A stretch of DNA of 64,000 bases from the NCBI RefSeq assembly GCF_020510565.1, contig NZ_CP075189.1, positions 124,001 to 188,000 of the forward strand, read 5' to 3'. Within the stretch, counting starts at the first letter, position 1, and every line of letters starts with the position of its first letter. Made by a program: the position numbers and the translations under genes. Under the pieces are notes generated by a model. It had not been told where the DNA came from, did not search any database, and was given only the letters and a program-made list of their open reading frames with translations. The stretch comes from Ferribacterium limneticum. Its GTDB lineage: Bacteria > Pseudomonadota > Gammaproteobacteria > Burkholderiales > Rhodocyclaceae. Below are positions 1,229 through 61,942 of this stretch, in pieces.

Positions 1229-2269
1229 ATGCCCCTGCATTTTCCCCACGCCCATCCGCCGGCAGCCGGCGAACTGACCGAAGTCGCGCCCGGCGTTTTC
1301 TGGCTGCGCATGCCGCTGCCCTTCCAACTTGACCACATCAATCTCTGGCTGCTCCGTGACGGCGCCGGTTGGGTCATCGTCGATACCGGCTTTCCGGATG
1401 ATGCGGTGCGTGCGATGTGGACGCAAATTCTGGAAAAACTCGACGGCCCGGTGACGCGCCTGATCGTCACCCATTTTCATCCCGATCATCTCGGGTTGGC
1501 TACCTGGCTTATGGAAAAGACCGGGGCGCCCTTGTCGATGACGACCGGCGAGTTCCTGACGGCCCATGCGGTGTGGCACGAGGTGGCCGGGCATGGCGCG
1601 CGTTTCATGGTCGAACAGTTCCGCCAGCACGGGCTGGATGGGGAGCATCTGGCCAAGTTCGAGAAGCGTGGTTCCGGTTACCGCAAGGCTGTCCCGGCCC
1701 TGCCGGAATATTATGACCGCCTGAAGATCGGTGACATTGCCACGGTCGACGGGAAAAATTGGCAAATTTTGATAGGTCATGGTCACGCTCCGGAACATAT
1801 GGCGCTTTACTGCGTCGAACTCGGCGTGTTAATTTCGGGCGACATGCTTTTGCCGAGAATTTCGACCAATATCAGCGTTTTTGCCGCAACCCCCAAGGCT
1901 GATGCATTACGCTGGTTTCTCGAGTCATTGGACGAAATGGCTGGTGAAATTCCGGACGAAACACTGGTATTGCCTTCGCACGGGTTGCCCTTCACAGGGA
2001 TTCGGGCGCGGGTTCAGGCACTGCATTCGCACCATGAAGAACGACTGCAAGCTTTGGAAGACAGCTGTGAACTAGCGCCGCAGAGCGCAGCCGGGTTACT
2101 CGATGTGTTGTTCAATCGGGCGCTCGATACACACCAAACCATGTTCGCGATGGGTGAAGCAATTGCCCATCTGAACTACCTTGAGCAAGCTGGTCGGTTG
2201 TCATGCAGCATCGGCGCCGACGGGGTGATTCGCTATTCGCGGTTGCAGTCTAAAGCCGTTACGCACTGA
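1229..2269 (+). CDS. metallo-beta-lactamase-fold hydrolase
   Basis: A 346-residue protein of the MBL superfamily. It shows VIVDTGFPDD then the zinc-binding motif THFHPDH at about residue 90, a later GHGHAPEHM histidine, ISGDMLLP with the bridging Asp, and a C-terminal HGLPF histidine. A C-terminal extension (~80 residues, with a LLDVLF winged-helix-like segment) resembles the LACTB2/hydroxyacylglutathione hydrolase-like branch with an added helical domain. The ATG at 1229 is preferred to a TTG two codons upstream. The protein is cytoplasmic with unknown substrate. A copy of the dispersed repeat lies inside it and encodes ATVDGKN, in a surface-type region before the GHGHAPEH motif. Confidence 0.8.
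   Translation: MPLHFPHAHPPAAGELTEVAPGVFWLRMPLPFQLDHINLWLLRDGAGWVIVDTGFPDDAVRAMWTQILEKLDGPVTRLIVTHFHPDHLGLATWLMEKTGAPLSMTTGEFLTAHAVWHEVAGHGARFMVEQFRQHGLDGEHLAKFEKRGSGYRKAVPALPEYYDRLKIGDIATVDGKNWQILIGHGHAPEHMALYCVELGVLISGDMLLPRISTNISVFAATPKADALRWFLESLDEMAGEIPDETLVLPSHGLPFTGIRARVQALHSHHEERLQALEDSCELAPQSAAGLLDVLFNRALDTHQTMFAMGEAIAHLNYLEQAGRLSCSIGADGVIRYSRLQSKAVTH
1739..1773 (-). repeat. dispersed GTTGACCG repeat, copy 1 (in MBL gene)
   Basis: Here the core reads CCACGGTCGACGGGAAAAA on the plus strand, followed by the A/T tract GGCAAATTTTGAT. It is in frame in the MBL hydrolase (ATVDGKN). It deviates from the consensus at two core bases (CGAC for CAAC, GGG for CGG). Confidence 0.6.
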
Positions 2270-2285
2270 CAGAGGGAGTTTCAAG

Positions 2286-4121: not shown

Positions 4122-4145
4122 GGGCGGTCTCGCCTGAAGAACCGG

Positions 4146-4520: not shown

Positions 4521-4562
4521 ATTTCAATTTTGGCCGGAATTTTCGGTTGACCGTGGGAATGC
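4521..4562 (+). repeat. dispersed GTTGACCG repeat, copy 2 (intergenic)
   Basis: One of the best copies: a TTTCAATTTTGGCC arm, then GGAATTTTC, then the core CGGTTGACCGTGGGAAT. It lies between two converging gene ends (MoaD-like stop at 4511 and ubiT stop at 4585), and so is free of coding constraint. It is therefore useful for defining the consensus. Confidence 0.85.
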
Positions 4563-8027: not shown

Positions 8028-9031
8028 CGGGTGACGACGGTCGGCCGGTAGCCGAGCGCGGCGCGGATTTTTTCAGCCACCCGGTCGGCATCGCTCCGGC
8101 TGGCGTAGGGGCCAAGGTGCAGGCGATGAATGCCGCCACCCGGATTGACCCGCATGCTTTCGGTCAGCCAGTCGAGTTCGCGCAACAGGTGGTTTTTGAG
8201 GTTTTCTGCGTTGTCGGCGCTGGAGAAAGCGCCGAGTTGCAGGTAGATGCCTTTGGCTGCACTGGCGTCGCTGGTTGTGCCCGCCACGGGCAGCGTTTGC
8301 ATGGGTTGCTCCTCGAGCGCCATGCGCTTGGCCAGTTGCTCGATCTCGTCCTTTTCGGCGTTGCTGGCAACCCGCGGCGGCGGGGTCACCTGAGCGTAAG
8401 CGGTGCCGGCCAGCTCGCCGGGAATGATCGCCTCGACCTCGACCTGGCCGCTGCCGCCATTGATCAGGCCGAGCTTGTAGGCGGCGGTGTAGGACAGGTC
8501 GATGACGCGGTCGGCATGGAAGGGGCCGCGGTCGGTAACGCGGACGATCACCGACTTGCCGCTCTGCAGGCCGGTGACGCGGACATACGAGGGCAGGGCC
8601 AGCGTCGGGTGGGCGGCGGTCATGGCGAACATGTCGTAGGGCTCGCCGATCGAGGTCTTCTGGCCGTGGAATTTCTTGCCATACCAGCTGGCGATGCCGC
8701 GGGCCTTGTACGGCTTGAGGGCAGTGTTCGGGACGTATTCCTTGCCGAGCACGACGTAGGGTTTGGTTGCCGGCTTGTGCAGCGGTTCCCATTTTGGCTC
8801 GGCATCCGGGATGTCTTCCAGGCCGTCCGGGATGTCATCGGCCGGGCCGTCATCCTTGTAGAAACCGCCGCCGCGCTTGAGGACGGCGGTCGGCTTTCTG
8901 GTCGGCGTCGGCGATTTCAAATTTGGCTGTTTTTCCCGGTCGACCGTGGAATTCTGCAGCGGGGCGGGCGGCGTGCTGCCACAGGCGGCGAGCAGCAAGG
9001 CGAGCGTCAGCGGGGCCAGTAGCCGGGTCAT
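8024..9031 (-). CDS. rlpA: septal-ring lytic transglycosylase RlpA (lipoprotein, DPBB-SPOR)
   Basis: 335 residues. A lipoprotein signal ends LALLLAACGS. A double-psi beta barrel has GIASWYGKKFHGQKTSIGE and RVTDRGPFHADRVIDLSYTA. A C-terminal SPOR domain has IYLQLGAFSSADNAENLKN and GPYASRSDADRVAEKIR. RlpA cleaves denuded glycan strands at the septum. The start overlaps the mrdB stop by 4 bp, so this is the last gene of the rod-shape operon. A dispersed-repeat copy encodes STVDREKQPNLK in the low-complexity linker just after the lipobox cysteine. Confidence 0.93.
   Translation of the reverse strand: MTRLLAPLTLALLLAACGSTPPAPLQNSTVDREKQPNLKSPTPTRKPTAVLKRGGGFYKDDGPADDIPDGLEDIPDAEPKWEPLHKPATKPYVVLGKEYVPNTALKPYKARGIASWYGKKFHGQKTSIGEPYDMFAMTAAHPTLALPSYVRVTGLQSGKSVIVRVTDRGPFHADRVIDLSYTAAYKLGLINGGSGQVEVEAIIPGELAGTAYAQVTPPPRVASNAEKDEIEQLAKRMALEEQPMQTLPVAGTTSDASAAKGIYLQLGAFSSADNAENLKNHLLRELDWLTESMRVNPGGGIHRLHLGPYASRSDADRVAEKIRAALGYRPTVVTR
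8913..8953 (+). repeat. dispersed GTTGACCG repeat, copy 3 (in rlpA linker)
   Basis: The arm GATTTCAAATTTGGC, a T-rich tract, and the core CCCGGTCGACCGTGGAATTC. The rlpA gene reads the opposite strand as STVDREKQPNLK. Confidence 0.75.
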
Positions 9032-14988: not shown

Positions 14989-16439
14989 TCAATAAAAGCC
15001 TGAAGCAGCTATCGCAGGCGCTGGCCGCGAAGCAGATTTCCAGTGTCGAACTGTCGTCGCTCTTTCTTGACCGCATCGAGCGCCTGAATCCGACGCTCAA
15101 CGCCTTTGTCACGGTCGACCGGGAAAAAAGCCTGAAAATGGCATTGGCTGCCGATGCCCGTATCGCTGCCGGTACTGCCGGCCCGCTGACCGGCATTCCG
15201 ATCGCCCAAAAGGACATCTTTTGCGCCGAGGGCTGGACGACGACCTGCGGCTCGAAAATGCTGGCCAATTTCGTCTCGCCCTACGACGCGACGGTCATTC
15301 ACAAAATGCACGCCGAAGCCGGACTGGTCTCGCTCGGCAAGACGAACATGGATGAATTCGCCATGGGCTCGTCGAATGAAACTTCGTTCTTCGGACCGGT
15401 GCGTAATCCGTGGGATACCAGCCGCGTTCCCGGCGGCTCTTCCGGCGGTTCGGCGGCAGCGGTTGCCGCCCGTTTGGCGCCCGCAGCAACCGGCACAGAC
15501 ACCGGTGGCTCGATCCGCCAGCCGGCCGCGCTGTGCAATCTGACCGGTCTGAAGCCGACTTACGGTGTGGTGTCCCGTTACGGCATGATTGCCTTTGCCT
15601 CGTCGCTCGACCAGGGCGGCCCGATGGCAGCCGGTGCTGAAGATTGCGCCCTGCTGCTCAACACCATGGTCGGTTTCGACGAGCGCGATTCAACCTCGCT
15701 GGATCGCCCGGTTGAGGATTACACCCGCGATCTGGAAAAGCCACTGAACGGTCTGCGTATTGGCCTGCCCAAAGAATTCTTCGGCGAAGGCTGCGATGCC
15801 GAAGTGATGGCTGCCGTGCGCGCCGCGATTGCCGAATACGAGAAGCTCGGTGCGACGACGGTTGAAGTCTCGCTGCCCAACTCGCATTTGTCGGTGCCGG
15901 CCTATTACGTTATCGCGCCGGCCGAAGCCAGTTCCAACCTGTCGCGCTTCGATGGCGCCCGTTACGGTTATCGCGCCCCCGAGTACGACAACCTCGAGCA
16001 GATGTACGAAAAGACCCGCGCCCAGGGCTTCGGTGCCGAAGTCAAACGGCGCATCATGATTGGCGCTTATGTGCTGTCGCACGGCTATTACGATGCTTAT
16101 TACCTGCAGGCGCAGCGCATCCGTCGCCTGATCGCCAACGATTTCGTCGAAGCCTTCAAGTCCTGTGACGTGATCATGGGCCCGACCTCGCCGTCGACCG
16201 CTTTCAAGCTCGGTGAGAAGGCGGCCGATCCGGTCCAGATGTACCTCTCGGACATCTACACGATTGCCGTCAATCTGGCCGGTCTGCCCGGCATGTCGAT
16301 TCCCTGTGGCTTTGTCGGCGGCTTGCCGGTTGGCCTGCAGTTGATCGGCAACTATTTTGCCGAAGGGCAATTGCTCAACGTGGCCCACCGTTATCAGCAG
16401 GCAACCGACTGGCATCAGCGCCGGGCGGCCATCGAATAG
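14985..16439 (+). CDS. gatA: Asp/Glu-tRNA amidotransferase subunit A
   Basis: A 484-residue amidase-signature enzyme. Catalytic Lys is in PIAQKDIF, cis-Ser and nucleophile Ser in the glycine/serine-rich [14 protein letters not shown] and [12 protein letters not shown]. It releases ammonia from glutamine for GatB. A repeat-like segment encodes [12 protein letters not shown] at residues ~43-53, a region that is variable in length and sequence among GatA proteins. Confidence 0.97.
15108..15143 (-). repeat. dispersed GTTGACCG repeat, copy 4 (in gatA)
   Basis: GTCACGGTCGACCGGGAAAA on the plus strand, followed by an A/T tract ending CTGAAAATGGC. This is a degenerate copy in frame as TVDREK; chance similarity is possible. 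Confidence 0.5.
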
Positions 16440-16988: not shown

Positions 16989-18443
16989 ATGAAACAGTGG
17001 GAAGTGGTAATCGGCATCGAGACGCACGCGCAACTGGCGACGGTTTCGAAGATTTTCTCAGGCGCCTCGACGGCTTTCGGCGCTGAGCCGAATACCCAGG
17101 CTTGCGCGGTCGACTTGGCCTTGCCGGGCGTTTTGCCGGTGCTCAACAAGAAGGCGGTCGAGTGCGCCATTCGCTTCGGCCTGGCCATTGGCGCCGAAGT
17201 CGCCCAGAAATCGGTTTTCGCCCGCAAAAACTATTTTTATCCGGACCTGCCCAAGGGCTACCAGATCAGCCAGATGGACCTGCCGGTTGTCGTCGGCGGC
17301 AACATCACGGTGCAGGTCGGCCAGGGCGACAAGGCTTACGAGAAGGTTGTTCGCCTGACGCGCGCCCACCTCGAAGAAGATGCCGGCAAATCGTTGCATG
17401 AAGACTTCCAGGGCAAGTCGGGCATCGACCTCAACCGGGCCGGCACGCCGCTGCTCGAAATCGTTTCCGAGCCCGACATGCGCTCGTCCGACGAGGCCGT
17501 CGCCTACGCCAAGTCGTTGCACGCGCTGGTCCAGTGGATTGGCATCTGCGACGGCAACATGCAGGAAGGTTCTTTCCGCTGCGACGCCAACGTTTCGGTG
17601 CGGCCGAAAGGTCAGGCCGAGTTCGGCACCCGGCGCGAAATCAAGAACCTCAACTCTTTCCGTTTCCTCAAGGAAGCCATCGACTTCGAAGTCCAGTGGC
17701 AGATCAACGAAATCGAAGAAGGCCGCAGGATTCAGCAGGCCACGGTGCTGTTCGACCCGGATAGCGGTGAAACCCGCATGATGCGCAGCAAGGAAGACGC
17801 GCACGATTACCGTTATTTCCCTGACCCTGACTTGTTGCCACTGGTTATTTCGAGCGAATGGATTGCTCGCGTTCAGAGCGAACTGCCGGAATTGCCGGTC
17901 CAGATGCGTGAGCGCTTCATCAGCGAATTCGGACTGTCGAATTACGATGCGACGGCGCTGACAGCAAATTCCGAAATTGCCGCTTTTTTCCAGTTGACCG
18001 TGGGAATCGCCGGGAAGCAGAACGCCAAGCCCTGCGCCAACTGGGTCATGGTCGATCTGGCTGCCCGCCTCAACAAGGATGGCAAGGAAATCGCCGAATC
18101 GCCGGTGTCGGCCGCCCAACTGGCCGGCTTGATCCTGCGCATCGCCGACAACACCATCTCCAACAACATCGCCAAGAAAGTTTTTGAGGCCCTGTGGAAT
18201 GGCGAGGGGACGACGGCTGACGAAGTCATCGACAAACAGGGGCTCAAGCAGATCACCGACAGCGGCGCCATCGAGTCACTGGTTGATGAAGTGCTGGCGG
18301 CCAATCCGGCCAATGTTGCCGAGTTCAAGGCCGGCAAGGAGAAGGCCTTCAACGCCCTGGTCGGTCAGGTCATGAAAGCGGCCAAGGGCAAGGCTAATCC
18401 GCAGCAGGTCAATGACCTGCTCAAGCAGAAACTGGCGGGCTGA
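16989..18443 (+). CDS. gatB: Asp/Glu-tRNA amidotransferase subunit B
   Basis: 484 residues. The kinase-like catalytic core begins [13 protein letters not shown] and includes [34 protein letters not shown] and [15 protein letters not shown]-terminal GatB/YqeY helical domain ([18 protein letters not shown]) binds tRNA. The ATG at 16989 is preferred over an upstream frame overlapping the lipoprotein gene. A dispersed-repeat copy encodes [12 protein letters not shown] in the linker before the NWVMVDL segment, where homologues vary. Confidence 0.97.
17973..18008 (+). repeat. dispersed GTTGACCG repeat, copy 5 (in gatB)
   Basis: GAAATTGCCGC, a T6 tract, then the core CCAGTTGACCGTGGGAATC. It is read in frame as FFQLTVGI. 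Confidence 0.75.
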
Positions 18444-31857: not shown

Positions 31858-32649
31858 TCACAGATCAAAAATGGCGAGCAATTGTGGCAGGCCTTCGCTG
31901 ATCGCCACCGGACCGGGAGTCAGGATGATGGCTGATTTGATTTCATGCATGTTTTTCCGGTTGACCGCAGGAATGGCCTCCCAGCCGGGCCGGGCGGCGA
32001 CGCGTTCGGGGCGGAAGTGCTTGCCGCACCAGGAGCCGATGATGATGTCTGGGGCGCGGGCGATGACGTCTTCCGGTGTCGGCCGGCGATCCTTGGCTAA
32101 TGGCGAGCGGGCTTGTTGGGCGAAGATGTCTTCGCCGCCGGCGATTTCGATGAGTTCGGAGGCCCAGCGGATGCCGCTGATCAGCGGTTCGTCCCATTCC
32201 TCGAAATAGACGCGCGGCTTTTTGCCGGTTTTGGCGAAACGTTCGGCGGCGATGGCGCGGGCTTGTTCGATTTGCGCTTCCAGCCCGGCGACGATCTCCA
32301 GTGCCTTGGCCTCGGCGCCGACCAGTCGGCCAACCGTTTCAATCATGCCGAGAATGTCCTCGACACTGCGCGTGTTGAAGGCGTAAACCGGCACGCCGGC
32401 CTTGATCAAATCGCGTGAAATCTCGCTTTGCAGGTCGGAGAAGGTCAGCACGAGATCGGGCTGCGTCGCCAGAATCTTGTCGATGTCGCCGCTCGTGAAG
32501 GCGAAGACCTTGGGCTTTTCCTTGCGCGCCTCGGGTGGGCGTACGGTGTAGCCAGAAATGCCGACGATGCGGTCCTGCTCGCCGAGGGCGTAGAGCACTT
32601 CAACCGTTTCGGTGGTCAGGCAGACGATGCGTTGCGGCGTGCGGCTCAT
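31858..32649 (-). CDS. leaderless BtuF-like cobalamin-binding protein
   Basis: 263 residues of the type III periplasmic-binding fold (RIVCLTTETVEVLYALGEQDRIVGISGY; IDKILATQPDLVLTFSDLQ; EWDEPLISGIRW). It has no signal peptide: the ATG at 32649 overlaps the upstream stop by 4 nt, and upstream in-frame residues are not leader-like. It is the last gene of the riboswitch-controlled bluB operon, after a leader-containing paralogue. It could bind cobalamin or cobinamide in the cytoplasm, or be exported by another route. A dispersed-repeat copy encodes PAVNRKN. Confidence 0.82.
   Translation of the reverse strand: MSRTPQRIVCLTTETVEVLYALGEQDRIVGISGYTVRPPEARKEKPKVFAFTSGDIDKILATQPDLVLTFSDLQSEISRDLIKAGVPVYAFNTRSVEDILGMIETVGRLVGAEAKALEIVAGLEAQIEQARAIAAERFAKTGKKPRVYFEEWDEPLISGIRWASELIEIAGGEDIFAQQARSPLAKDRRPTPEDVIARAPDIIIGSWCGKHFRPERVAARPGWEAIPAVNRKNMHEIKSAIILTPGPVAISEGLPQLLAIFDL
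31940..31975 (+). repeat. dispersed GTTGACCG repeat, copy 6 (in btuF-like gene)
   Basis: The arm ATTTCATGCATG, a T tract and the core CCGGTTGACCGCAGGAATGG. It is read on the opposite strand as PAVNRKN. Confidence 0.7.
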
Positions 32650-33536
32650 TTGGCCGGCCTCCGGCTGCGCGCGACGTCGAGATGGGCGCAGAGCTTTTCG
32701 GTACCGTCGAGGATGCGCGGCGTGTGGCGTTGCATGATGTCCGGGTTGATGTGGAACAGGTTGTCGCGTTTGACGGCGGTCATCCGCGTCCATTTGTCCC
32801 AGTCGTGCAGCCATTCCGGCTTGGCGTCGCCCATGCCGGTGGCGATGATGGCCTCGGGGTCGGCTTCGAGCACGGCTTCGACGGTGACGTTGGGCGCCAT
32901 TTGCTTGAGATGGCCGAAAACGTTTTCGCCGCCGCAGATCTTGATGGCGTCGCTGATGATCTGCGGGCCGCCGACGGTCATCAGTGGCGTTTTCCAGATT
33001 TGGTAGAAGACGCGCACTTTCGGCTTGCTGGCATTGGCGACGCGCAAGCCTTCAAGGCGTTTGCGGAAACGCTCCGCCGTGGCGTTGGCGGCGGCTTCGG
33101 TGCCGGCCAGTTGACCGAGTCGTTCGAGCTGGTTGGCGATGTTGTCGATGGTGTTCGGTTGCGAAACATAGACGCTCAGGCCGAGCGCCCTGAGCTTGTT
33201 CACCTGCGTCATGTTATTGCCGCTTTCCCAGGCCAGCACGATGTCTGGTTTCAGCGCAGCGACGGCTTCGAGGTCGATGCGCGAATAGCCGCCGACGCGC
33301 GGCACTTTCTTCGCCTCCGGCGGGTAGTCGCTGTAATCGACGGTGCCGACCAGTTTGTCGCCGGCGCCGGCCGCGTAGAGGCTCTCGGCGGCATGCGGGG
33401 CGAGGGTGACGATGCGTTTGGCCGGCGTCCTGAGGCGGACTTCCTGGCCGGTATCGTCCTTGACGACGAGATCGGCGTGGGCGGCGGTGGAAATGAGTGT
33501 TGCCACGGTCAACCGGAAAAAAAGGCCGAATTTCAA
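32646..33536 (-). CDS. btuF: periplasmic cobalamin-binding protein BtuF
   Basis: 296 residues from a TTG start (33536) overlapping the cobC stop by 4 nt. The N-terminus KFGLFFRLTVATLISTAAHA is a plausible Sec signal peptide and is almost entirely encoded by a dispersed-repeat copy. Mature motifs: RIVTLAPHAAESLYAAGAGDKLVG, DYPPEAKKVPRVGGYSRIDLEAVAALKPDIVLAW, and HINPDIMQRHTPRILDGTEKLC, all typical of BtuF. It delivers vitamin B12 to BtuCD, which is not in the window. The start is inferred because no ATG lies near and further upstream the frame is inside cobC. Confidence 0.88.
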   Translation of the reverse strand: MKFGLFFRLTVATLISTAAHADLVVKDDTGQEVRLRTPAKRIVTLAPHAAESLYAAGAGDKLVGTVDYSDYPPEAKKVPRVGGYSRIDLEAVAALKPDIVLAWESGNNMTQVNKLRALGLSVYVSQPNTIDNIANQLERLGQLAGTEAAANATAERFRKRLEGLRVANASKPKVRVFYQIWKTPLMTVGGPQIISDAIKICGGENVFGHLKQMAPNVTVEAVLEADPEAIIATGMGDAKPEWLHDWDKWTRMTAVKRDNLFHINPDIMQRHTPRILDGTEKLCAHLDVARSRRPAK

Positions 33537-33539
33537 ATG
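33501..33539 (-). repeat. dispersed GTTGACCG repeat, copy 7 (btuF start)
   Basis: Plus strand: GCCACGGTCAACCGGAAA followed by AAAGGCCGAATTTCAAATG. It contains the cobC stop codon and the btuF TTG start and codes for the btuF signal peptide. Confidence 0.85.
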
Positions 33540-35432: not shown

Positions 35433-36184
35433 TTCGGAAAAACGCCCTTTTCCTGAATATCGGCCTGCAATTCAGCCAATGCCACGGTCAACGGGAAATT
35501 TTGCCCAAAATCAGAATCGCCCCACTGCTCGAAATAGACCAGATCGTTGATCGGCAGACGCGGCAGCCAACCGGCCTTTTCGAGTTCCGGCTTGTCGTTG
35601 AAATGACTGACGTAACCGATGCACAAATAAGCAATCGGTACGATGTGGTGCGGAATGCCGAGCGCGTCCTGTAGCGCCTTCTCGTGGAAAATGCTCACCC
35701 AGCCGACGCCCAGCCCCTCGGCCCGCGCCGCCAGCCACAGGTTTTGCACGGCGCACACGCTGCTGTAAAGGTCCATGGTCGGCATGTGGGTGCGGCCAAG
35801 CACCACCGGCCCGCTACGCGAACGGTCGCAGGTGATGCACAGGTTGATCGGCGCTTCGAGAATGCCCTGCAACTTGAGCTTCGAGTAAATCTCGCGCTTC
35901 TCGTCAGGGAACATCCGCGCCGCTTCGTTGTTGGCCTCGGCAAAAACGTTATGGACGCGCTGCTTCACCGCCTCCGACTTCACCAGCAAAAAATTCCACG
36001 GCTGCATAAAGCCGACCGACGGCGCATGGTGCGCCGCCATCAGCACGCGAGCGAGCAAATCGTCGGGCACCGGCGTCGGCAAAAACTGGCCGCGCACATC
36101 GCGCCGGCTGAAAATGGCCTGATACACCGCCGCCCGGTCGGCGTCGGAAAAAGCCTGCGCCTGCGGCGCGGAAAGGTTTTCCAT
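35429..36184 (-). CDS. bluB: 5,6-dimethylbenzimidazole synthase BluB
   Basis: A 251-residue nitroreductase-fold flavoenzyme. Motifs: RRDVRGQFLPTPVPDDLLARVLMAAHHAPSVGFMQPWNF and YSSVCAVQNLWLAARAEGLGVGWVSIF. It cleaves FMNH2 with O2 to form the lower ligand of B12. The ATG at 36184 is family-normal; a longer frame extends toward the riboswitch. First gene of the operon. A dispersed-repeat copy near the 3' end encodes FGQNFPLTVAL, giving a C-terminal tail beyond the usual domain. Confidence 0.95.
   Translation of the reverse strand: MENLSAPQAQAFSDADRAAVYQAIFSRRDVRGQFLPTPVPDDLLARVLMAAHHAPSVGFMQPWNFLLVKSEAVKQRVHNVFAEANNEAARMFPDEKREIYSKLKLQGILEAPINLCITCDRSRSGPVVLGRTHMPTMDLYSSVCAVQNLWLAARAEGLGVGWVSIFHEKALQDALGIPHHIVPIAYLCIGYVSHFNDKPELEKAGWLPRLPINDLVYFEQWGDSDFGQNFPLTVALAELQADIQEKGVFPK
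35481..35517 (-). repeat. dispersed GTTGACCG repeat, copy 8 (bluB 3' end)
   Basis: GCCACGGTCAACGGGAAATT then TTGCCCAAAATCAGAAT: a near-complete copy with both A/T arms. It is read by bluB as NFPLTVAL. Confidence 0.85.
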
Positions 36185-37044: not shown

Positions 37045-38520
37045 ATGCCCTGTTCTTCCCTGATGGTCCAAGGGACCACCTCCGATGCCGGCAAGACGAC
37101 GCTGGTTGCTGCGTTGTGCCGCATCCTGCAGCGTCGTGGCGTGCGCGTGGCGCCGTTCAAGCCGCAGAACATGGCGCTCAATTCGGCAGTTACGGTCGAT
37201 GGTGGCGAGATCGGGCGGGCGCAGGCGTTGCAGGCGCTGGCTTGCGGGCTGGCGCCGCATACCGATTTCAATCCGGTGCTGCTCAAGCCGACGACCGACA
37301 AGAAGGCGCAGGTCATCATTCACGGCAAGGTGGCCTTCGACCTCGATGCCAAGGCCTATCACGACTACAAGCCGCGGGCGATGGGGGCGGTGCTCGAATC
37401 GTGGGCGCGGCTGACGGCGGCTTACGATTGCGTCGTGGTCGAGGGGGCGGGGTCGCCGGCCGAGATCAATTTGCGCGACCGCGACATTGCCAACATGGGT
37501 TTTGCCGAGGCCGTCGATTGCCCGGTGATCATCGTCGCCGACATCGACCGGGGCGGGGTTTTTGCCCACCTCGTCGGTACGCTGGAACTGCTGTCGCCGA
37601 CCGAGCAGGCGCGGGTCAAGGGTTTCGTCATCAACCGTTTTCGTGGCGACATCGCGCTGCTTGAATCCGGCCTGACCTGGCTGGAAGAGCGCACCGGCAA
37701 GCCCGTTCTCGGCGTTCTGCCGTATTTGCACGGCCTCATGCTCGATGCCGAGGATGCCATTGCGACTGCTACGGTCAACGGGAAAAAAGCGGCAAAATTG
37801 AAAGTCATCGCGCCGGCTTACCCGCGCGTTTCGAACCACAACGACCTCGACCCGCTACGCCTACATCCGGAAGTCGATTTCCGCTGGATAGCCCCAGGCG
37901 AAACGCCGCCGGCGGCCGACCTGATCGTCCTGCCCGGCTCGAAGGCGGTGCGTGCCGACATCGACTGGCTGCGTGAAAAAGGCTGGGCGACGGCCATTCA
38001 CAAGCATTTGCGTTACGGCGGCAAGGTGGTCGGCCTGTGCGGTGGCTACCAGATGCTGGGCCAGATGATCCACGATCCGCAGGGGCTGGAAGGTCAGGCG
38101 GGCAGTACGCCGGGGCTGGGCGTGTTGGGCGTGGAAACGACGCTCGAAGCTGAGAAGCAGCTGCGGAATGTGAGTGGTCACTTGTCTCTGCCGGGATGGC
38201 CGGCCATGACCGGTTATGAAATTCACCTCGGCGTGACGCGTGGTGCTGGCCTAGCGCAAAGCGCCGTCGAACTGGCCGACGGTGTCAGCGACGGCGCCAT
38301 TTCTGCCGACAACCAGGTCTTCGCAACCTATTGTCACGGCGTCTTCGATCACCCGGAAGCGCTGACCGCCTTGCTCGCTTGGGCTGGTATGACGGAAACC
38401 GAGCAGGTCGATTTCGCCGCCCGCCGCGAGGCCGACCTCGACCGTCTGGCCGATTCGGTCGAGGCGGCGCTCGACTGGGCAAAGATGGATGCCCTGTTGC
38501 CGCGCCACGCAGCGAGCTGA
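37045..38520 (+). CDS. cobQ: cobyric acid synthase
   Basis: 491 residues. The N-terminal ATP-binding domain has [22 protein letters not shown] and [13 protein letters not shown]. The C-terminal triad glutamine amidotransferase domain has nucleophile Cys in [12 protein letters not shown] and His in [12 protein letters not shown]. It amidates adenosylcobyrinic acid a,c-diamide at four side chains. The ATG at 37045 is preferred to a TTG upstream. It stands alone on the plus strand, without its own riboswitch in the short upstream gap. A repeat copy encodes [12 protein letters not shown] in the interdomain region before [10 protein letters not shown]. Confidence 0.96.
37768..37803 (-). repeat. 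dispersed GTTGACCG repeat, copy 9 (in cobQ)
   Basis: GCTACGGTCAACGGGAAAAA then GCGGCAAAATTGAAA: a full-length copy read in frame as [12 protein letters not shown]. Confidence 0.85.
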
Positions 38521-41893: not shown

Positions 41894-42946
41894 ATGCATT
41901 CGTTGGACTTCAAGATCACCGCCCCGGACCGGGCAATTGAAAATTCGCTCAAAAATCGGGTTGACCGCAAGACCAAGCCGCTCGGCGCGCTCGGCCTGCT
42001 CGAACGCACTGCCATCAAGATCGGCCTGATCCAGCAGCGCCTCGACCCGGAATTCGGCCAGCCGCACCTGCTGGTTTTTGCCGGCGACCACGGCGCGGCC
42101 AAGGCCGGCGTCTCGGCCTACCCGCAGGATGTCACCTGGCAGATGGTCGAGAATTTTCTGGCTGGCGGCGCCGCGATCAACGTTTTTGCCCGGCAGAACG
42201 ACCTGCATCTGGCCATCATCGACGCCGGTGTGGCGCACGATTTCGGCAAGCGTGCCGGGCTGATTGATGCCAAGATCGCCGCCGGAACGGCCAATTACAT
42301 CGAAGAGCCGGCGATGACCGTCGAGCAATGCGCCCAGGCCATCGCCCGCGGCGCCGAAATCAGCCGCAATCTGGCTGCCAACGGCTGCAACGTTGTCGGC
42401 TTCGGCGAAATGGGTATCGGCAACACGGCCGCCGCCTCGCTCATCACCCATTGCCTGACCGGCCTGCCGCTCGCCGAGTGCATTGGTCGCGGCACCGGGC
42501 TTGATGATGCCGGGCTGACGCGCAAGCAGGCACTGCTCGAAAAGGCGCTCAACCGCTATCGCGCCGCCGGTGGCAACAACGACCCGCTGGCCGTGCTGGC
42601 AGAATTCGGCGGCTTCGAAATCGCCATGATGGTCGGCGCCATGCTCGGCGCTGCCGAAGCGAAGATGACCTTGCTCATCGACGGCTTCATCGTCGGCTCG
42701 GCGGCGCTGACTGCCACCCGGCTGGCCCCGGCGCTGGCCGACTACAGCGTCTTCTGCCATCGCTCGGCCGAAGCCGGTCACGCCGCCCAACTGGCGGCAC
42801 TCGGCGCCGAACCCTTGCTCGACCTCGGCCTGCGCCTCGGCGAAGGCACCGGTGCCGCGCTGGCCTTCCCGCTCGTTCAGGCTGCAGTCAATTTCCTCAA
42901 CGAAATGGCCAGTTTCGAATCGGCAGGCGTTTCCGACAAGGCATGA
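41894..42946 (+). CDS. cobT: nicotinate-nucleotide:dimethylbenzimidazole phosphoribosyltransferase
   Basis: 350 residues. CobT motifs: [73 protein letters not shown] and the C-terminal [17 protein letters not shown] with the catalytic Glu. It makes alpha-ribazole phosphate from the base produced by BluB. The ATG at 41894 follows a TTTGGAGAAT ribosome site; the upstream frame is riboswitch leader. It overlaps cobS by 4 nt. Confidence 0.96.
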
Positions 42947-43720: not shown

Positions 43721-43760
43721 ATTCCCACGGTCAACCGGAAATCTTGCCCAAAATTGAAAA
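43721..43760 (-). repeat. dispersed GTTGACCG repeat, copy 10 (intergenic, after cobS)
   Basis: ATTCCCACGGTCAACCGGAA then ATCTTGCCCAAAATTGAAAA: one of two intergenic, near-perfect copies and so close to the true consensus. Confidence 0.9.
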
Positions 43761-45138: not shown

Positions 45139-45681
45139 ATGCGCCTCCACCTGATCCGCCACCCAAAGCCGAGCATCGAACCGGGCATTTGCTACGGTCA
45201 ACTGGAAATTTCGGCCAAAATTGAAATGGCCGAAGTCGCCCGCCTGCGCGCCGAATTGCCACACGGCCTGCCGCTGTGGAGCAGTCCGTTGATGCGTTGC
45301 CGGCAACTGGCCGAGCGGCTTCACCCGCAGCCGATCATCGACGCGCGGCTGGCCGAAATGAATTTTGGCGACTGGGAAGGCAGGCCCTGGGATGACATTC
45401 CGCGCCACGAGCTTGATGCCTGGGCCGCCGACGTCGCCGGCTACGCGCCGCCCGGCGGCGAGTCGCCGGGCGCCTTGCAACAGCGGGCGCTGGCTTTCGT
45501 GGCCGGGCTGGATGTGCCGGAAGCCGTGGTCGTCACCCACGCCGGTATCATCCGCACCTTGCTCGCCCACTGGCAGAACCTGCCGCCAGCGCGCTGGAGC
45601 GAGCTGAAAATCGGCTTTTCGACAGTAACGAGCGTGTCCCTCTCGCGCGACAGCGCCGACCTGATTCGCCTGAATCGGTAG
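45139..45681 (+). CDS. cobC: alpha-ribazole phosphatase (histidine phosphatase family)
   Basis: 180 residues. LHLIRHPKP holds the catalytic His (the usual RHG is RHP, as in many CobC), with SSPLMRCRQLAERL, EMNFGDWEGRPWDDI and VVVTHAGIIRTLLA with the second His. It dephosphorylates alpha-ribazole phosphate for cobalamin assembly. It is on the cobTS strand but separated from them by the methyltransferase-like and HEPN genes. A dispersed-repeat copy encodes CYGQLEISAKIEM at residues ~19-31. Note the symbol clash with the PLP enzyme at 33.5 kb. Confidence 0.9.
   Translation: MRLHLIRHPKPSIEPGICYGQLEISAKIEMAEVARLRAELPHGLPLWSSPLMRCRQLAERLHPQPIIDARLAEMNFGDWEGRPWDDIPRHELDAWAADVAGYAPPGGESPGALQQRALAFVAGLDVPEAVVVTHAGIIRTLLAHWQNLPPARWSELKIGFSTVTSVSLSRDSADLIRLNR
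45191..45227 (-). repeat. dispersed GTTGACCG repeat, copy 11 (in cobC phosphatase)
   Basis: GCTACGGTCAACTGGAAATT then TCGGCCAAAATTGAAATG: full-length with both A/T arms. It is read in a different frame from most copies, as YGQLEISAKIEM. Confidence 0.88.
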
Positions 45682-54138: not shown

Positions 54139-55011
54139 ATGCCGCCGCGCCTGATCTCGGTCATCGTCACCACCTATAACCGGCCGGACGCCTTGCGCGC
54201 CGTGCTGGCTTCGCTTGCCGCGCAGACTGATACAGCATTCGAAGTGCTGGTAGCTGACGATGGCTCACGGCAGGAGACGGCGGCGGCAGTCGCCGAGGCG
54301 GCGGTCAATTTTCCGGTCCCGCTGGTCCATCTGTGGCAGTCCGATGACGGGTTTCGTGCGGCGGCAGCGCGCAATCTGGCGGTGGCGGCAAGTCGAGGCG
54401 ATTACCTCGTCTTCGTCGACGGCGATTGCGTGCTGCGCCCGGATTTTGTCGCGCGACACCGGGCGCTGGCCGAGCCGGCCTGGTTCGTGGCCGGAAACCG
54501 GGTGTTGCTGTCCGAGAGTTTCACGAAAAAGGTGCTGCAATCGCCGATGATCGAGCTGCACGGTGACAGTCGTCTGAACTGGCTGGGCCGCCGGTTTTAC
54601 GGGGTGATCAATCGCTGGTTGCCGCTCTGCTTCGTGCCGGGGAACGGTTGGCGCAAGCGCCAGCCGCAACGCTGGCAAGGCGCGCGGACCTGCAATCTGG
54701 CAATGTGGCGGTCCGATTTCGATGCCATCAACGGCTTTGACGAAGCTTTTCAGGGCTGGGGGCACGAAGATGCCGACCTCGCCATCCGCCTGTTGCATGC
54801 CGGCGTAAGGCGGAAGGACGGGCGTTTTGCCACGGCCGTGCTGCATCTCTGGCACCGCGAGAACGACCGCAGCAATCTGGTCGAGAACGAACGCCGGCTG
54901 GCGGAGATTCTGGCTGCCGACCGGCGACGTGCAGCGGTCGGGATCGATACCTATAACCCCGATCGAGTCAGCGCAGCCGTGCTTCAGAAATTGGGCAAAA
55001 TTTCCGGTTGA
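54139..55011 (+). CDS. family 2 glycosyltransferase with C-terminal galactosyltransferase-like region
   Basis: 290 residues. LISVIVTTYNRPDALRAVLASLAAQTD, VLVADDGSRQETA, YLVFVDGDCVLRPDFV (DGD metal site) and AMWRSDFDAINGFDEAFQGWGHEDADLAIRLLHAG, the last typical of the glycosyltransferase-7C/N-acetylgalactosaminyl region. Probably adds a sugar to LPS core. Its last residues LGKISG and stop codon are supplied by a dispersed-repeat copy, so the C-terminus may have been replaced. Confidence 0.86.
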   Translation: MPPRLISVIVTTYNRPDALRAVLASLAAQTDTAFEVLVADDGSRQETAAAVAEAAVNFPVPLVHLWQSDDGFRAAAARNLAVAASRGDYLVFVDGDCVLRPDFVARHRALAEPAWFVAGNRVLLSESFTKKVLQSPMIELHGDSRLNWLGRRFYGVINRWLPLCFVPGNGWRKRQPQRWQGARTCNLAMWRSDFDAINGFDEAFQGWGHEDADLAIRLLHAGVRRKDGRFATAVLHLWHRENDRSNLVENERRLAEILAADRRRAAVGIDTYNPDRVSAAVLQKLGKISG

Positions 55012-55021
55012 CCGTAGGAAT
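54985..55021 (+). repeat. dispersed GTTGACCG repeat, copy 12 (end of GT2 gene)
   Basis: CAGAAATTGGGCAAAATTT then CCGGTTGACCGTAGGAAT. The TGA within GTTGACC is the stop codon of the glycosyltransferase. The copy fills the whole gap to the convergent polA stop. Confidence 0.9.
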
Positions 55022-57741
55022 CAGTGCGCGGCTTCCCAGTTCGGCCCGACGCCGACTTCGACGACCAGCGGCACCTTGAGTTCGGCGACCTGACTCATCA
55101 GGCGGGGCAGGTGGGTACGGATGTCCATCAGTTCGTCGTCCGGCACTTCGAGCAGCAGTTCGTCGTGTACCTGCAGCACCAATTTTGATTTCAGCCCCGA
55201 TTTTTCCAGCCACTCCTGCACGGCGATCATCGCCAGCTTGATCAGGTCGGCGGCTGTGCCCTGCATCGGCGCGTTGATCGCGGCGCGCTCTGCCCCCTGG
55301 CGGCGGTTGCCGTTGCTCGAACGGATTTCCGGGAACCACAGGCGGCGGCCGAAGGCGGTTTCGACGTAGCCTTTTTGCCGCGCCATTTCCCGGGCCTCTT
55401 CCATGTAACGGGCGACGCCGGGGTAGCGGGCGAAATAGCGGTCGATGTAGGTCTGTGCGGCGCTGCGTTCCAGCCCGAGCTGGCGAGCGAGGCCGAAGGC
55501 GCTCATGCCGTAGATCAGGCCGAAATTGATGCTCTTGGCGACGCGGCGCTGGTCGGGGCCGACTTCGAGCGGTGTGACGCCGAAGATCTCGCCGGCCGTC
55601 GCGCGGTGCACATCCTCGCCGTGTGAGAAGGCGTGGAGCAAGCCTTCGTCGCCCGAGAGGTGGGCCATGATGCGCAGCTCGATTTGCGAGTAGTCGGCCG
55701 AGACGATGCTCGAACCTTCGGGTGCTATGAAGGCAGTACGGATCTTCCGGCCTTCCTCGCTGCGTACCGGGATGTTCTGCAGGTTGGGGTCGGTCGAGGC
55801 AAGGCGCCCGGTGACAACGGATGCCTGCGAGAAGTGAGTATGCACTCGCCCGGTTTGCGTGTTGACCATGCGTGGTAGCTTGTCGGTGTAGGTGCCCTTG
55901 AGTTTGGACAGGCTGCGGTGTTCGAGCAGCAGCTTGGGTAGCGGGTAGTCGAGTGCGAGTTCGGAGAGCACTTCCTCGTCGGTGGACGGGCCGCCGGAGG
56001 GTGTTTTCTTCTTGACCGGTAGGCCCAGTTTTTCAAACAGGATGTCGCCGAGTTGCTTGGGTGAGGCGAGGTTGAAGGGCTGGCCGGCCAGTTCGTAAGC
56101 CTGCGCTTCGAGGGCCATGATCTTCTGGCCCATTTCGTGGCTTTGCCGGCTCAGAACATCGCTGTCGATCAAGATACCGTTGCGCTCGATCTGCCAGATG
56201 ACCTGGCGGGCCGGCATCTCGATGTCGTGGTAGATGCGGCTCAAACCGGGTTCGTCGGCGAATTGCGGGTGCAGGACGTTATGGACGCGTAGGGTGACGT
56301 CGGCGTCTTCGGCCGAGTAGATGGCGGCGCGCTCGATGTCGACCTGGTCGAAGCTGATCTGCTTGGCGCCCTTGCCGCACAGGTCTTCGTAGGCGATGGT
56401 GTCGAGGCCGAGGTGGCGGGTGCATAGCTGGCCGAGGTCGTGGCCCTTGTCGGACTCGATGACGTAGCTTTGCAGCATGGTGTCGTGTTCTATGCCGGCC
56501 AGCGTGATGCCGTGGTTGGCGAAGACGTGCTGGTCGTACTTTGCGTTTTGCAGCACTTTTTTCCGGTTGACCGTGGAAAGCCAGGGTTTGAGCTTTTCCA
56601 GCACTTCGTCACGCGGCAACTGGTCGGCAACGCCGGGGGCAGTGTGGGCGAGCGGGATGTAGCAAGCTTCGCCCGGTTTGACCGAGAGCGAAATGCCGAC
56701 GATGCGGGCGGCGAAGGAGTCGAGGCTGGTCGTTTCGGTGTCGAGCGCCGTCAGTTCTGCCGCTTCGATTTTGGCCAGCCAGGCATCGAATTGCGGCCAG
56801 CTCAGGACAGTTTCGTAGGTAACGTCGATTTTGCCTTGGAGCGCCGGAGCTGCGGCGTCGGAAACCGTGCGGGCCGGGATGTCGGCGGCCGCTTCCGGAC
56901 CGTCGATATCGGCCAGCCACGAGCGGAACTGGTAACGGGTGTAGAGTTCGCGCAGCGTGGCGAGATCGGGCGCTGTTGCGTTCAGCGTGGCCGGTGCTGG
57001 CAGGTTGGTGAGGTCGCAGGCGACGGTAACCAGCTTTTTTCCCAGCGGCAAAAAGCCGAGGTGGTCGCGCAGATTCTGGCCGACGACGCCGCCGATTTCG
57101 TCGGCATGGGCGACGATTTCGTCGAGCGATCCGTATTGCGCCAGCCATTTGAGCGCGGTTTTCGGCCCGCATTTGGCGACGCCCGGTACGCCGTCGACGG
57201 TGTCACCAACCAGCGCCAGATAATCAACAATCTTGTCCGGGGGCACGCCGAACTTGGCCTCGACGCCGGCCTCGTCGAGCAGTTCGTTGCTCATCGTGTT
57301 GTACCAGCGGACGAGCGGATTGACCAGTTGGGTCAGATCCTTGTCACCGGTCGAAATCAGCGTGTTAATGCCGTCCACCGCAGCATTCGTCGCCAGCGTG
57401 CCGATCACGTCGTCGGCCTCGACGCCATCGACCATGAGCAGCGGCCAGCCGGCGGCCTTGATGGCAGCGTGCAACGGCTCGATCTGGCCGACCATTTCGG
57501 GCGGCATCGGCGGGCGGTGCGCCTTGTATTCCGGATACCAGTCGTCACGGAAGGTCTTGCCCTTGGCATCGAAGACGACGGCCTTGTAGTCTGCCTTGTA
57601 GTCGCTCTCGAGACGACGTAGCATGTTCAGAACGCCGTAGATGGCGCCTGTCGGCTCGCCAGCCTTGTTACGCAAGTCGGGCAGGGCGTGGAAAGCGCGA
57701 TAAAGATAGGACGAACCGTCCACCAACAATAAGAGAGGCAT
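55021..57741 (-). CDS. polA: DNA polymerase I
   Basis: 906 residues with all three domains. The 5' nuclease has LLLVDGSSYLYRAFHAL, VDGVEADDVIGTLA and GVPGVAKCGPKTALKWL. The 3'-5' exonuclease has ALDTETTSLDSFAARIVG. The polymerase A core has SADYSQIELRIMAHLSGD, KSINFGLIYGMSAFGLA and LQVHDELLLEVP. It fills gaps and removes RNA primers. A repeat copy encodes STVNRKKVLQNAKYD in the exonuclease domain, substituting the usual variable residues before the N(A/L)KYD motif. Its start lies only 5 bp from the divergent LOG gene. Confidence 0.98.
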   Translation of the reverse strand: MPLLLLVDGSSYLYRAFHALPDLRNKAGEPTGAIYGVLNMLRRLESDYKADYKAVVFDAKGKTFRDDWYPEYKAHRPPMPPEMVGQIEPLHAAIKAAGWPLLMVDGVEADDVIGTLATNAAVDGINTLISTGDKDLTQLVNPLVRWYNTMSNELLDEAGVEAKFGVPPDKIVDYLALVGDTVDGVPGVAKCGPKTALKWLAQYGSLDEIVAHADEIGGVVGQNLRDHLGFLPLGKKLVTVACDLTNLPAPATLNATAPDLATLRELYTRYQFRSWLADIDGPEAAADIPARTVSDAAAPALQGKIDVTYETVLSWPQFDAWLAKIEAAELTALDTETTSLDSFAARIVGISLSVKPGEACYIPLAHTAPGVADQLPRDEVLEKLKPWLSTVNRKKVLQNAKYDQHVFANHGITLAGIEHDTMLQSYVIESDKGHDLGQLCTRHLGLDTIAYEDLCGKGAKQISFDQVDIERAAIYSAEDADVTLRVHNVLHPQFADEPGLSRIYHDIEMPARQVIWQIERNGILIDSDVLSRQSHEMGQKIMALEAQAYELAGQPFNLASPKQLGDILFEKLGLPVKKKTPSGGPSTDEEVLSELALDYPLPKLLLEHRSLSKLKGTYTDKLPRMVNTQTGRVHTHFSQASVVTGRLASTDPNLQNIPVRSEEGRKIRTAFIAPEGSSIVSADYSQIELRIMAHLSGDEGLLHAFSHGEDVHRATAGEIFGVTPLEVGPDQRRVAKSINFGLIYGMSAFGLARQLGLERSAAQTYIDRYFARYPGVARYMEEAREMARQKGYVETAFGRRLWFPEIRSSNGNRRQGAERAAINAPMQGTAADLIKLAMIAVQEWLEKSGLKSKLVLQVHDELLLEVPDDELMDIRTHLPRLMSQVAELKVPLVVEVGVGPNWEAAH
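56543..56580 (+). repeat. dispersed GTTGACCG repeat, copy 13 (in polA)
   Basis: GCGTTTTGCAGCACTTTT then TTCCGGTTGACCGTGGAAAG: perfect core, weaker arms. It is read by polA as STVNRKKVLQ. Confidence 0.8.
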
Positions 57742-59765: not shown

Positions 59766-59774
59766 CATCCGCGC

Positions 59775-60521: not shown

Positions 60522-60522
60522 G

Positions 60523-61296
60523 ATGCGCGCCCAGACACTACCGCCCGCCGCCGGCTGGCGCTGGATTTTTACCGGCTTTGCCATTTTTCGGCGCAATCCG
60601 ATTGTTCTCGGCATGTTGGTCCTCACCTACTGGTTCACGGTGGTCTTCCTCAATGTGCTGCCGTTCATCGGTGCGCTCGCCGCTTCGCTGGTCATCCCCG
60701 GCCTCTCGGTCGGCCTCATGCAGGCCGCCCGTCAGGTTGAACGTGGTCAGGCGATCGGCGTACAGACCCTGTTTGGCAGCATGAAGGAAAATGCCCGCAC
60801 CCTGCTCGCCCTCGGTGCCCTCTACCTGTGCTGCACGCTCGGCGTTCTCGGCATGTCCACCCTGCTCGACGGCGGCGACATGTTCAAATTCATGATGGCC
60901 GATACCCGGGCCGAACGGGCTGCCGTCGAAGACGCCGATTTCATCGCCCCGGCGCTGTTCGTCATGGCCATGATGACGCCGGTCATGATGGCCTACTGGT
61001 TTGCCCCGGTGCTTGCCGCCTGGCACCGGCTGACCCTCGGCCGGGCCTTGTTCTTCAGCTTTGTTGCCTGCTGGATGAACTGGCGGGCTTTCCTGGTCTA
61101 TGGCTTGGGCATGATGCTGGTGGCCGGTGTCGTGCCCGGCGTCCTCCTTGGCATCCTGCTGCTGATCTTCCCCGACGCCGCCAGTTTCATTACTGCCGTC
61201 GTCACCATGCCGCTCGTACTGGTCATCGCGCCGACCATCTTCGCCAGCTTCTACGCCTGCTACCGCGACATCTTCGGCATTTCCGAAATTGTCTGA
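60523..61296 (+). CDS. BPSS1780-family membrane protein (paralogue 2)
   Basis: 257 residues. GWRWIFTGFAIFRRNPIVLGMLVLTYWFTVVFLNVLP and IPGLSVGLMQAARQVERGQAIGVQTLFGSMKENARTL are followed by WFAPVLAAWHRLTLGRALFFSFVACWMNWRAF and a terminal FASFYACYRDIFGISE. These parallel the paralogue upstream at each position, implying tandem duplication. It overlaps nadD by 8 nt. Confidence 0.85.
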   Translation: MRAQTLPPAAGWRWIFTGFAIFRRNPIVLGMLVLTYWFTVVFLNVLPFIGALAASLVIPGLSVGLMQAARQVERGQAIGVQTLFGSMKENARTLLALGALYLCCTLGVLGMSTLLDGGDMFKFMMADTRAERAAVEDADFIAPALFVMAMMTPVMMAYWFAPVLAAWHRLTLGRALFFSFVACWMNWRAFLVYGLGMMLVAGVVPGVLLGILLLIFPDAASFITAVVTMPLVLVIAPTIFASFYACYRDIFGISEIV

Positions 61297-61942
61297 GCCG
61301 CTTGGCCTCTTCGGGGGCACTTTCGATCCCGTGCATTTTGGTCACCTCCGGCTGGCCGAGGAAGCCATCGCCCACCTCGGCCTCGGTGGTGTGCGCTGGA
61401 TCCCCGCCGGCCAGCCGCCGCATCGCGGCACGCCGCAAGTGACCGCGCAGCAGCGTCTGGAGATGGTGCTACGGTCAACCGGAAATAATGCCCGATTTTC
61501 AATTGATGCCAGCGAGGTCGAAGCCGCCGCACCGAGCTACACGGTGCATACGCTCGAACGGCTGCGCCGCGAGCTCGGCGCCGAGCAGTCGCTGGTCCTG
61601 CTCGTTGGCGCCGATGCCTTTGCCGGACTCGCCACCTGGCATCGTTGGCGTGACATTTTTGCCCTGGCCCATGTCGCCGTCTCGCATCGCCCCGGTTTCC
61701 CGGTCGAAGCGAGCAGCCTGTCGCACGAGTTGGCGACCGAATTCAACGACCGTCGGCTGACCGATGTCGGCGGGCTGAAACTCGCTCCGGCCGGGGGGAT
61801 TGTCACTTTTGCCATGACCCAGCTCGCCATTTCGGCGACGCAGATTCGCAAGCTGCTGGCCAACGGCCTGTCGGCGCGTTATTTGCTGCCGGATAGCGTT
61901 CTCGACTATATTCACCTTCACCAACTCTATAAAAGTACCTGA
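61289..61942 (+). CDS. nadD: nicotinate-nucleotide adenylyltransferase
   Basis: 217 residues from TTG 61289. LGLFGGTFDPVHFGHLRLAEEA contains the HxGH nucleotidyltransferase motif, VRWIPAGQPPHRGTPQVTAQQR is the NadD loop, and C-terminal ISATQIRKLLANG the ISSTxxR motif. It makes deamido-NAD. A repeat copy encodes RSTGNNARFSIDASE, replacing the usual variable residues before the conserved Phe-rich strand. It overlaps rsfS by 1 nt. Confidence 0.95.
   Translation: MSEPLGLFGGTFDPVHFGHLRLAEEAIAHLGLGGVRWIPAGQPPHRGTPQVTAQQRLEMVLRSTGNNARFSIDASEVEAAAPSYTVHTLERLRRELGAEQSLVLLVGADAFAGLATWHRWRDIFALAHVAVSHRPGFPVEASSLSHELATEFNDRRLTDVGGLKLAPAGGIVTFAMTQLAISATQIRKLLANGLSARYLLPDSVLDYIHLHQLYKST
61468..61505 (-). 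repeat. dispersed GTTGACCG repeat, copy 14 (in nadD)
   Basis: GCTACGGTCAACCGGAAATA then ATGCCCGATTTTCAATTG: good core and recognisable arms. Read by nadD as RSTGNNARFSID. Confidence 0.85.

Follow-up and report, generated by a model that had tools for sequence, protein, structure and literature searches.

Introduction

Genomic DNA uptake sequences are described as known from only two families, the Pasteurellaceae and the Neisseriaceae, in the available portion of a paper of October 2025 (PMC12616744). As given in the accessible text of PMC1626085 and PMC12616744, the uptake signal sequence (USS) of the Pasteurellaceae has the core AAGTGCGGT (Hin) or ACAAGCGGT (Apl), with a first A/T segment just 3′ of the core and a second one centred 12 positions on (PMC1626085). 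The DNA uptake sequence (DUS) of the Neisseriaceae is given as GCCGTCTGAA with the inner core CTG in the portion available of PMC3630211; according to the accessible text of PMC1626085, it lacks flanking A/T tracts, and both USS and DUS occur at a density near 1 per kb. Excerpts of PMC7811141, PMC1939737 and PMC2907700 were also drawn on.

Here we analyze a dispersed repeat in a stretch of 64,000 nucleotides, hereafter the window, from Ferribacterium limneticum (genome G000; NZ_CP075189.1, a single contig of 4,150,051 bases). Judged from sequence comparisons, the repeat is very probably a genomic DNA uptake signal sequence, as the original prediction for the window had proposed, and the best reading is that it would represent a third uptake-sequence system beside those of the two families. 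Among the papers listed, which came mostly from non-subscription literature and included no preprints, none reported by title or abstract such a sequence for Rhodocyclales, for Azonexus or for Dechloromonas.

Results

Layout of the motif and comparison with USS and DUS

A weight matrix was built from 464 kb of F. limneticum DNA, comprising the window and 20 evenly spaced 20-kb stretches. We read the motif throughout as ACGGTCAAC, which is opposite to the orientation used originally. The motif is about 38 letters long (−4 to +33 around the core), and its consensus is TgCC-ACGGTCAAC-CGGAAAAA-nGGCC-AAAATTGAAA; the 99 matrix matches above 13 bits (46 on the + strand) gave the longer form gcgatTgCC ACGGTCAAC CGGAAAAAanGgCC AAAATTGAAAt, and 94 matches exceeded 22 bits. 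The A/T tracts lie at +12 to +17 and +23 to +28 with nGGCC between them, followed by an extra A-rich stretch at +30 to +33, in agreement with the predicted layout of a core and two A/T tracts phased by about one helical turn around a GGCC-like spacer. The consensus was sharp in F. limneticum. The perfect core ACGGTCAAC was present there in 74 copies as against 24 for its commonest one-letter variant. Perfect cores numbered 34 against 32 for all one-letter variants in genome G246, and 28 against 37 in G147. Matrices seeded with the core alone recovered the distal tract in F. limneticum, G147, G201 and G177 (Dechloromonas sp. Dech2017).

As far as the cited text goes, the motif resembles USS in its plan, a core with two A/T tracts 3′ of it that are spaced by about a helical turn. 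Both systems also lack a strand bias, have subclade dialects, arose by mutation instead of insertion, and come with scattered damage to competence genes. The inner core GCGG (GCGGT) occurs in 14 of the 18 genomes typed below; the F. limneticum dialect instead has ACGG. On the other hand, the motif lacks the cores AAGTGCGGT and ACAAGCGGT; [GA]CGGT is common to both systems, but the core is extended here to CGGTCRAC and the outer letters differ. Counted from the C of CGG, the tracts lie at about +5 to +10 and +17 to +22 in USS, as worked out from the available part of PMC1626085, and at +11 to +16 and +22 to +27 here, so that their spacing is about 11 instead of 12 and both are about 6 bp further from CGG. 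Moreover, only the distal tract is strong in G147 and G201, the hosts are betaproteobacteria with 58–67% GC in the stretches compared, and the density is lower. Given the same plan, the offset of about 6 bp and the lack of GCGGT in F. limneticum, we say that the motif would work in the manner of a USS and do not class it as one. With DUS, as described in the text available, it shares dialects following tree branches, copies in the hundreds, betaproteobacterial hosts and the presence of a ComP-family minor pilin gene. The two have no common core; the motif contains neither a GCCGTCTGAA-type repeat nor the CTG core, and the ComP-like pilin here does not track dialect.

Abundance and strand symmetry

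The exact 14-letter core ACGGTCAACNGGAAA was present 207 times in forward and 214 times in reverse orientation (421 in total) in the F. limneticum genome, and the reversed-pattern control gave none in either orientation. A pan-dialect pattern (CGGTCRAC, 15 any letters and four A/T) gave 947 matches against 27 in its control, so that the count is far above chance genome-wide. The copies are not confined to one short region: every one of the 20 sampled stretches holds one to six of them. The variance/mean ratio of copies per 10 kb was 0.91, and we do not claim even spacing from it. Forward and reverse counts of the pan-dialect pattern differed by no more than about 11% in the 40 copy-rich genomes described below. 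Furthermore, with GC-skew sign as the replichore marker, motif strand was unrelated to it (19+/26− vs 15+/19−; 79 copies in the 20 stretches), indicating that the motif is not polar like KOPS or Chi, as had been argued originally.

Distribution and competence genes

We next scanned 76 genomes of the genus, whose named neighbours include Azonexus and Dechloromonas. Pan-dialect matches numbered 391–1785 in 40 genomes, 88–159 in 8 and at most 60 in 28, and the core ACGGTCAACNGG of F. limneticum itself occurred 128–524 times in 11 genomes. Outside the genus, the exact ACGGTCAACNGGAAA was found at most once per genome in 194 genomes of the family, and pan-dialect matches reached at most 27 per genome in 285 family genomes and did not exceed 37 in any of 393 genomes from the order. 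The eight genomes with intermediate counts were G200, G203, G208, G112, G240, G241, G242 and G265; perhaps the motif is decaying there after loss of uptake. In a ComEC tree covering 48 of the 76 genomes, species rich in the motif fell on either side of the midpoint root. Rich and poor labels changed nine times, at least six of these changes being forced by well-supported branches, and none of 500 shuffles was as low. This suggests that the system is probably old in the genus with repeated loss, as far as can be judged from a single gene, which may be subject to recombination itself.

Of the com and pil genes suggested for inspection, comEC and genes for type IV pilins are present. ComEC matches, some of them partial, were obtained in 71 of the 76 genomes and in all 51 high-quality ones, and the F. 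limneticum ComEC is full-length and above the curated ComEC_Rec2 cut-off. This genome has 17 N-methyl pilin-type matches, 16 of them above the cut-off. Its minor-pilin cluster encodes GspH/FimT, PilW, PilX and PilY1 along with a pilin that scores 88 bits against PF16732 ComP_DUS (cut-off 27). PF16732 is a broad family, and pilins of this kind are found whether a genome is rich or poor in the motif, so the match is not taken as evidence for a receptor. Searches with PF07963 located the pilins of six copy-rich and three motif-poor genomes besides F. limneticum, and a selection was compared. FimT/GspH of the F. limneticum cluster did not track dialect: it was 81% identical in G214, whereas its best matches were weak (E 1e-7 to 5e-7) in G229, G243 and G244, which share the F. 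limneticum dialect. One ComP/PilE-like pilin was found in each of ten minor-pilin clusters by BLAST, that of F. limneticum alone having been scanned with Pfam; it did not track dialect either, being present in motif-rich and motif-poor genomes alike with a similarity independent of dialect. Two pilins at 2.99 Mb were 98–99% identical between F. limneticum and G243, and had no match in the compared parts of G147, G201, G202 and G204. The cluster begins with FimT and ends with PilE in F. limneticum, G201, G202, G204 and G250, and begins with PilE in G243, G266, G147, G199 and G217; its proteins diverge fast, even among species of the same dialect.

ComEC was truncated, split or frameshifted in the motif-poor genomes G217, G206 and G250, and C-terminally in G199. 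The aligned part starts at residue 289–314 in G206, G250, G229 and G207, and a break lies near residue 390 in G217 and G209; the gene is possibly an insertion hot spot. Stops before about residue 58 of the reference, upstream of the start codon, were ignored; a stop near residue 82 was seen in G264. Both motif-rich and motif-poor genomes are affected, and neither presence of nor damage to ComEC was retained as separating them; we claim no correlation. These data bear on the possibility that the copies are true uptake sequences left as a relic in a strain, or in most of a genus, that no longer takes up DNA, which overlaps with our own reading. The apparent ComEC damage in some copy-rich genomes and the scatter of motif-poor lineages in the tree speak for it, but the full-length ComEC and sharp consensus of F. 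limneticum make it an unlikely explanation.

Dialects

The motif varies by species around the shared CGGTCRAC. Dialect letters were typed in 18 genomes, from part of each, with 9–93 sites per genome, so that minor letters are approximate. Note that the typing pattern imposes CGGTCRAC and the tract at +24 to +27; the core-seeded matrices are therefore the better evidence for a common distal tract. The dialects were TgCC-ACGGTCAAC in F. limneticum and G270; TGCT-GCGGTCAAC in G266; TGCT-GCGGTCGAC in G177, G246, G062, G207 and G236; TGCC/T-GCGGTCGAC in G204; TTTC-ACGGTCGAC in G147; TTG-ACGGTCGAC in G205; GCA-GCGGTCGAC in G201 and G202; TNTT-GCGGTCGAC in G209; GTT-GCGGTCGAC in G230; and GGTT-GCGGTCGAC in G223, G227 and G231. 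The G177 dialect carries GGGAAAAA behind the core, and GCGGTCGACNGGAAA has 91 copies in that genome and at most 31 in any other of the genus. De novo ten-mer enrichment gave CACGGTCGAC 28 times in 120 kb of G147 against 0.5 expected, and AGCGGTCGAC 22 times in G201 against 0.8 expected. In G177, no motif word was among the 18 ten-mers listed, and the motif was located in that genome by means of the core already known.

On the ComEC tree, a common dialect was seen in the sister pairs G201/G202, G204/G236 and G062/G207 as well as in the group of G223, G230, G231 and G227, and the genomes grouping with F. limneticum (G255, G243, G220, G229, G239 and G244) are all rich in ACGGTCAACNGG. Existing sites differ accordingly between species. 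The copy inside comEC reads ACGGTCAAC in F. limneticum, G255, G243, G220, G239 and G244, and GCGGTCGAC in G177. At all five sites alignable between the window and G177, +6 is A in F. limneticum and G in G177, and position 0 changes from A to G in three of them. In PolA, the peptide TVNR of F. limneticum becomes AVDR in G177 along with the dialect.

These observations weigh on a further alternative, listed in the original prediction as a nucleoid-protein site: the repeat would be bound by a protein that organises the chromosome or nucleoid, and the specificity of this protein would have drifted between species. A/T tracts spaced by about a helical turn do resemble bent-DNA sites, and copies are spread over the whole chromosome in both orientations. 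However, 36 of the 76 genomes have at most 159 pan-pattern matches, and the compared sites switched dialect together despite amino-acid changes such as that in PolA, so that what survives of this alternative is an improbable explanation.

Origin of the copies by substitution

Differences at orthologous sites arose by substitution. Against G270, which has the same dialect, 14 of the 15 window sites were alignable across the motif, 12 of them ungapped with the core retained; the exceptions were one indel beside the core and a 27-nt insertion inside the polA copy. Against G177, all five of the 15 sites alignable across the motif were ungapped. The polA site was ungapped in 79 of 80 orthologues, and 12 rows from outside the genus among the matches listed have different residues there. 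An unfiltered alignment of orthologues was gapped in 827 of 1970 rows, mostly those of low identity and many from one comEC region, and the count was redone at pan-pattern sites by identity class, with a control window on each flank. At 85% identity or more, gaps occurred in 2 of 102 cases at the motif and in 2 of 102 in each flanking window, and core identity was 0.97 compared with 0.89 and 0.92 in the flanks. Below 80% identity, where 692 of 1475 were gapped at the motif and 700 and 199 in the flanks, the comparison is uninformative.

In polA of G270, the motif is interrupted exactly between ACG and GTC by a 27-nt insertion, ACCACAGAAWCAAMGGCTGGCCCTAGG, which adds nine residues (L009:7207-7233, +; the same place is L232, −). 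The same insertion splits the motif at the identical point in G266 (L268, −, reversed offset 3056). A third match, 20/27 and possibly due to chance, was seen in G257 (L207, −, reversed offset 2394), where it lies in the comEC region with ACG on one side and GTCAACCG on the other. No match to the insertion was found among viral contigs.

The strong consensus, and the insertion that splits the motif identically in two species and perhaps one more, speak for a mobile or copied element of RPE, REP or MITE type that has been inserted genome-wide. Against it, the insertion lies inside existing copies and was found at three places in the 3.87 Mb compared, and the gap counts show no excess at the motif in the highest identity class. 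Rickettsial palindromic elements and other coding repeats place the same short sequence inside many proteins; the copies here replace existing codons and add none. A mobile origin, which the original prediction had listed as an RPE-like alternative, is thus very hard to credit.

Placement relative to genes

Genes were called with our own codon-usage caller, giving 83% coding sequence in F. limneticum. Of its 94 matrix copies, 45 were wholly inside genes (33-bp span), and the other 49 were in tandem (29), convergent (15) or divergent (4) gene gaps or at an edge (1). Among in-gene copies, 21 of 26 on the same strand as the gene were in frame 0, mostly giving peptides starting with TV[ND], and 14 of 19 on the opposite strand were in one preferred frame. 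A looser pattern, counted over 28 bp, placed 55 of 93 F. limneticum copies in genes, and 371 of 525 in the 18 genomes pooled, of which 84% is coding. The intergenic excess was clear in F. limneticum and G147. In G147, the palindrome CGGTCGACCG was present in 14 of 35 copies, some having longer palindromes such as GTTTTCACGGTCGACCGTGAAAAC, so a single site is readable from both strands, and these copies may double as terminators. As a general explanation, a transcription terminator or other gene-end regulatory element could draw on this excess and these palindromes, but is most improbable given that F. limneticum has no inverted pairs within 90 bp and only 10 of 93 copies self-palindromic, and that 48% (F. 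limneticum) to 71% (pooled genomes) of copies are inside genes.

Copies in the window

As shown in Table 1, 15 window copies scored above 22 bits with the 464-kb matrix (29.9–56.2 bits; weakest at 56574 and 41968), the next two sites scoring 14; at least 14 had been claimed, in a near-equal mix of orientations, and we found 8 on + and 7 on −. The core given originally, CCGGTTGACCGTGGGAAT, matched 10 times with up to three mismatches against 0.08 expected, and none of 100 shuffles reached 10. With a small-sample matrix, the maximum over ten simulated sequences was 10.1 bits; five weak sites of 19–26 bits with that matrix were discarded as seed artefacts, and none of them exceeded 22 bits with the larger one. 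Pfam confirmed the genes named originally as hosts (polA, gatA, gatB, cobQ and nadD, the last as a nadD-type cytidylyltransferase), and a copy at converging gene ends, a placement also foreseen, was found. ORF (open reading frame) 8024-9322 encodes a lytic transglycolase/SPOR protein with an uncertain start codon.

Table 1. Predicted uptake-sequence copies in the window
Feature	Position	Strand	Core	Score (bits)	Remarks
Predicted copy	1738..1775	+	ACGGTCGAC	47.0	
Predicted copy	4521..4558	-	ACGGTCAAC	51.6	
Predicted copy	8914..8951	-	ACGGTCGAC	54.0	in ORF 8024-9322 (-)
Predicted copy in gatA (amidase)	15107..15144	+	ACGGTCGAC	39.8	
Predicted copy in gatB	17968..18005	-	ACGGTCAAC	48.7	
Predicted copy in periplasmic binding protein gene	31935..31972	-	GCGGTCAAC	34.7	in ORF 31858-32814 (-)
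Predicted copy	33501..33538	+	ACGGTCAAC	56.2	
Predicted copy	35480..35517	+	ACGGTCAAC	50.6	
Predicted copy in cobQ	37767..37804	+		53.8	orthologous site GCGGTCGAC in G177
Predicted weaker copy	41935..41972	-	GCGGTCAAC	30.4	GCGGTCGAC in G177
Predicted copy	43723..43760	+	ACGGTCAAC	53.7	
Predicted copy	45190..45227	+	ACGGTCAAC	55.8	ACGGTCGAC in G177
Predicted copy, converging gene ends	54982..55019	-		44.2	ORF 54139-55011 (+) and polA 55021-57741 (-)
Predicted copy inside polA	56541..56578	-		29.9	peptide TVNR; distal tract weak; GCGGTCGAC (AVDR) in G177
Predicted copy in nadD-type gene	61467..61504	+		48.6	GCGGTCGAC in G177

Discussion

The abundance, strand symmetry and layout of the repeat, its origin by substitution, the dialects common to sister species, its patchy absence and the fact that genes for ComEC and type IV pilins are present fit uptake bias combined with recombination, and thus lend genomic support to the uptake-signal reading proposed originally. 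We infer from them a receptor, an uptake bias, a drive and losses. A DNA receptor on the cell surface, linked to the type IV pilus, would bind the core on free double-stranded DNA, the phased A/T tracts would bend or loosen the helix, and a loop would be pulled through the outer-membrane pore. ComEC would then pass one strand in, and recombination would replace the matching chromosomal stretch. Fragments with good matches would enter more often, so that matches arising by point mutation would spread genome-wide on both strands. Drift of receptor specificity would pull existing sites to a new dialect, and loss of the system would leave them to decay.

Several observations weigh against the uptake-signal reading. 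The density, about 0.13–0.48 per kb, is lower than that of USS and DUS, and in F. limneticum 27 one-letter variants total 182 copies, exceeding the 74 perfect cores, about 100 being expected from shuffled words. At 80–85% identity, gaps at the motif (16 of 150) were slightly above those in the flanks (8 and 13). The intergenic excess is weak or absent in several of the 18 genomes and reversed in G209, where 20 of 22 copies lie in genes compared with 74% coding. ComEC is apparently truncated or split in the copy-rich genomes G209, G207 and G229, and many motif-poor genomes retain a full-length match. None of the pilins compared (FimT, ComP/PilE-like and others) tracks dialect. Dialect and tree do not correspond one-to-one, as TGCT-GCGGTCGAC recurs in distant branches, suggesting that it may be the ancestral dialect.

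With the repeat read as an uptake signal, we somewhat favour a wider picture in which this lineage would be an independently evolved third one, confined to one environmental genus, with a series of dialects acting as sexual barriers between sister groups, with repeated loss, and with a core and paired tracts that came by convergence to resemble those of the Pasteurellaceae, GCGGT being common to most of the dialects and USS. Given the taxonomic gap to the Pasteurellaceae, an independent origin is simpler to assume, and common descent of the receptor with that of USS is the less simple alternative. If the convergence is true, the pilus uptake machine itself would dictate a core with bendable tracts. 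A third case in environmental betaproteobacteria, ranging from background to 1785 matches with several dialects in one genus, would provide a natural comparative series bearing on the identity of the receptor, its co-change with dialect, the isolation of species by dialect and the role of the A/T tracts. Placing the right dialect on donor DNA may also be a possible route to genetic access in relatives of Azonexus and Dechloromonas.

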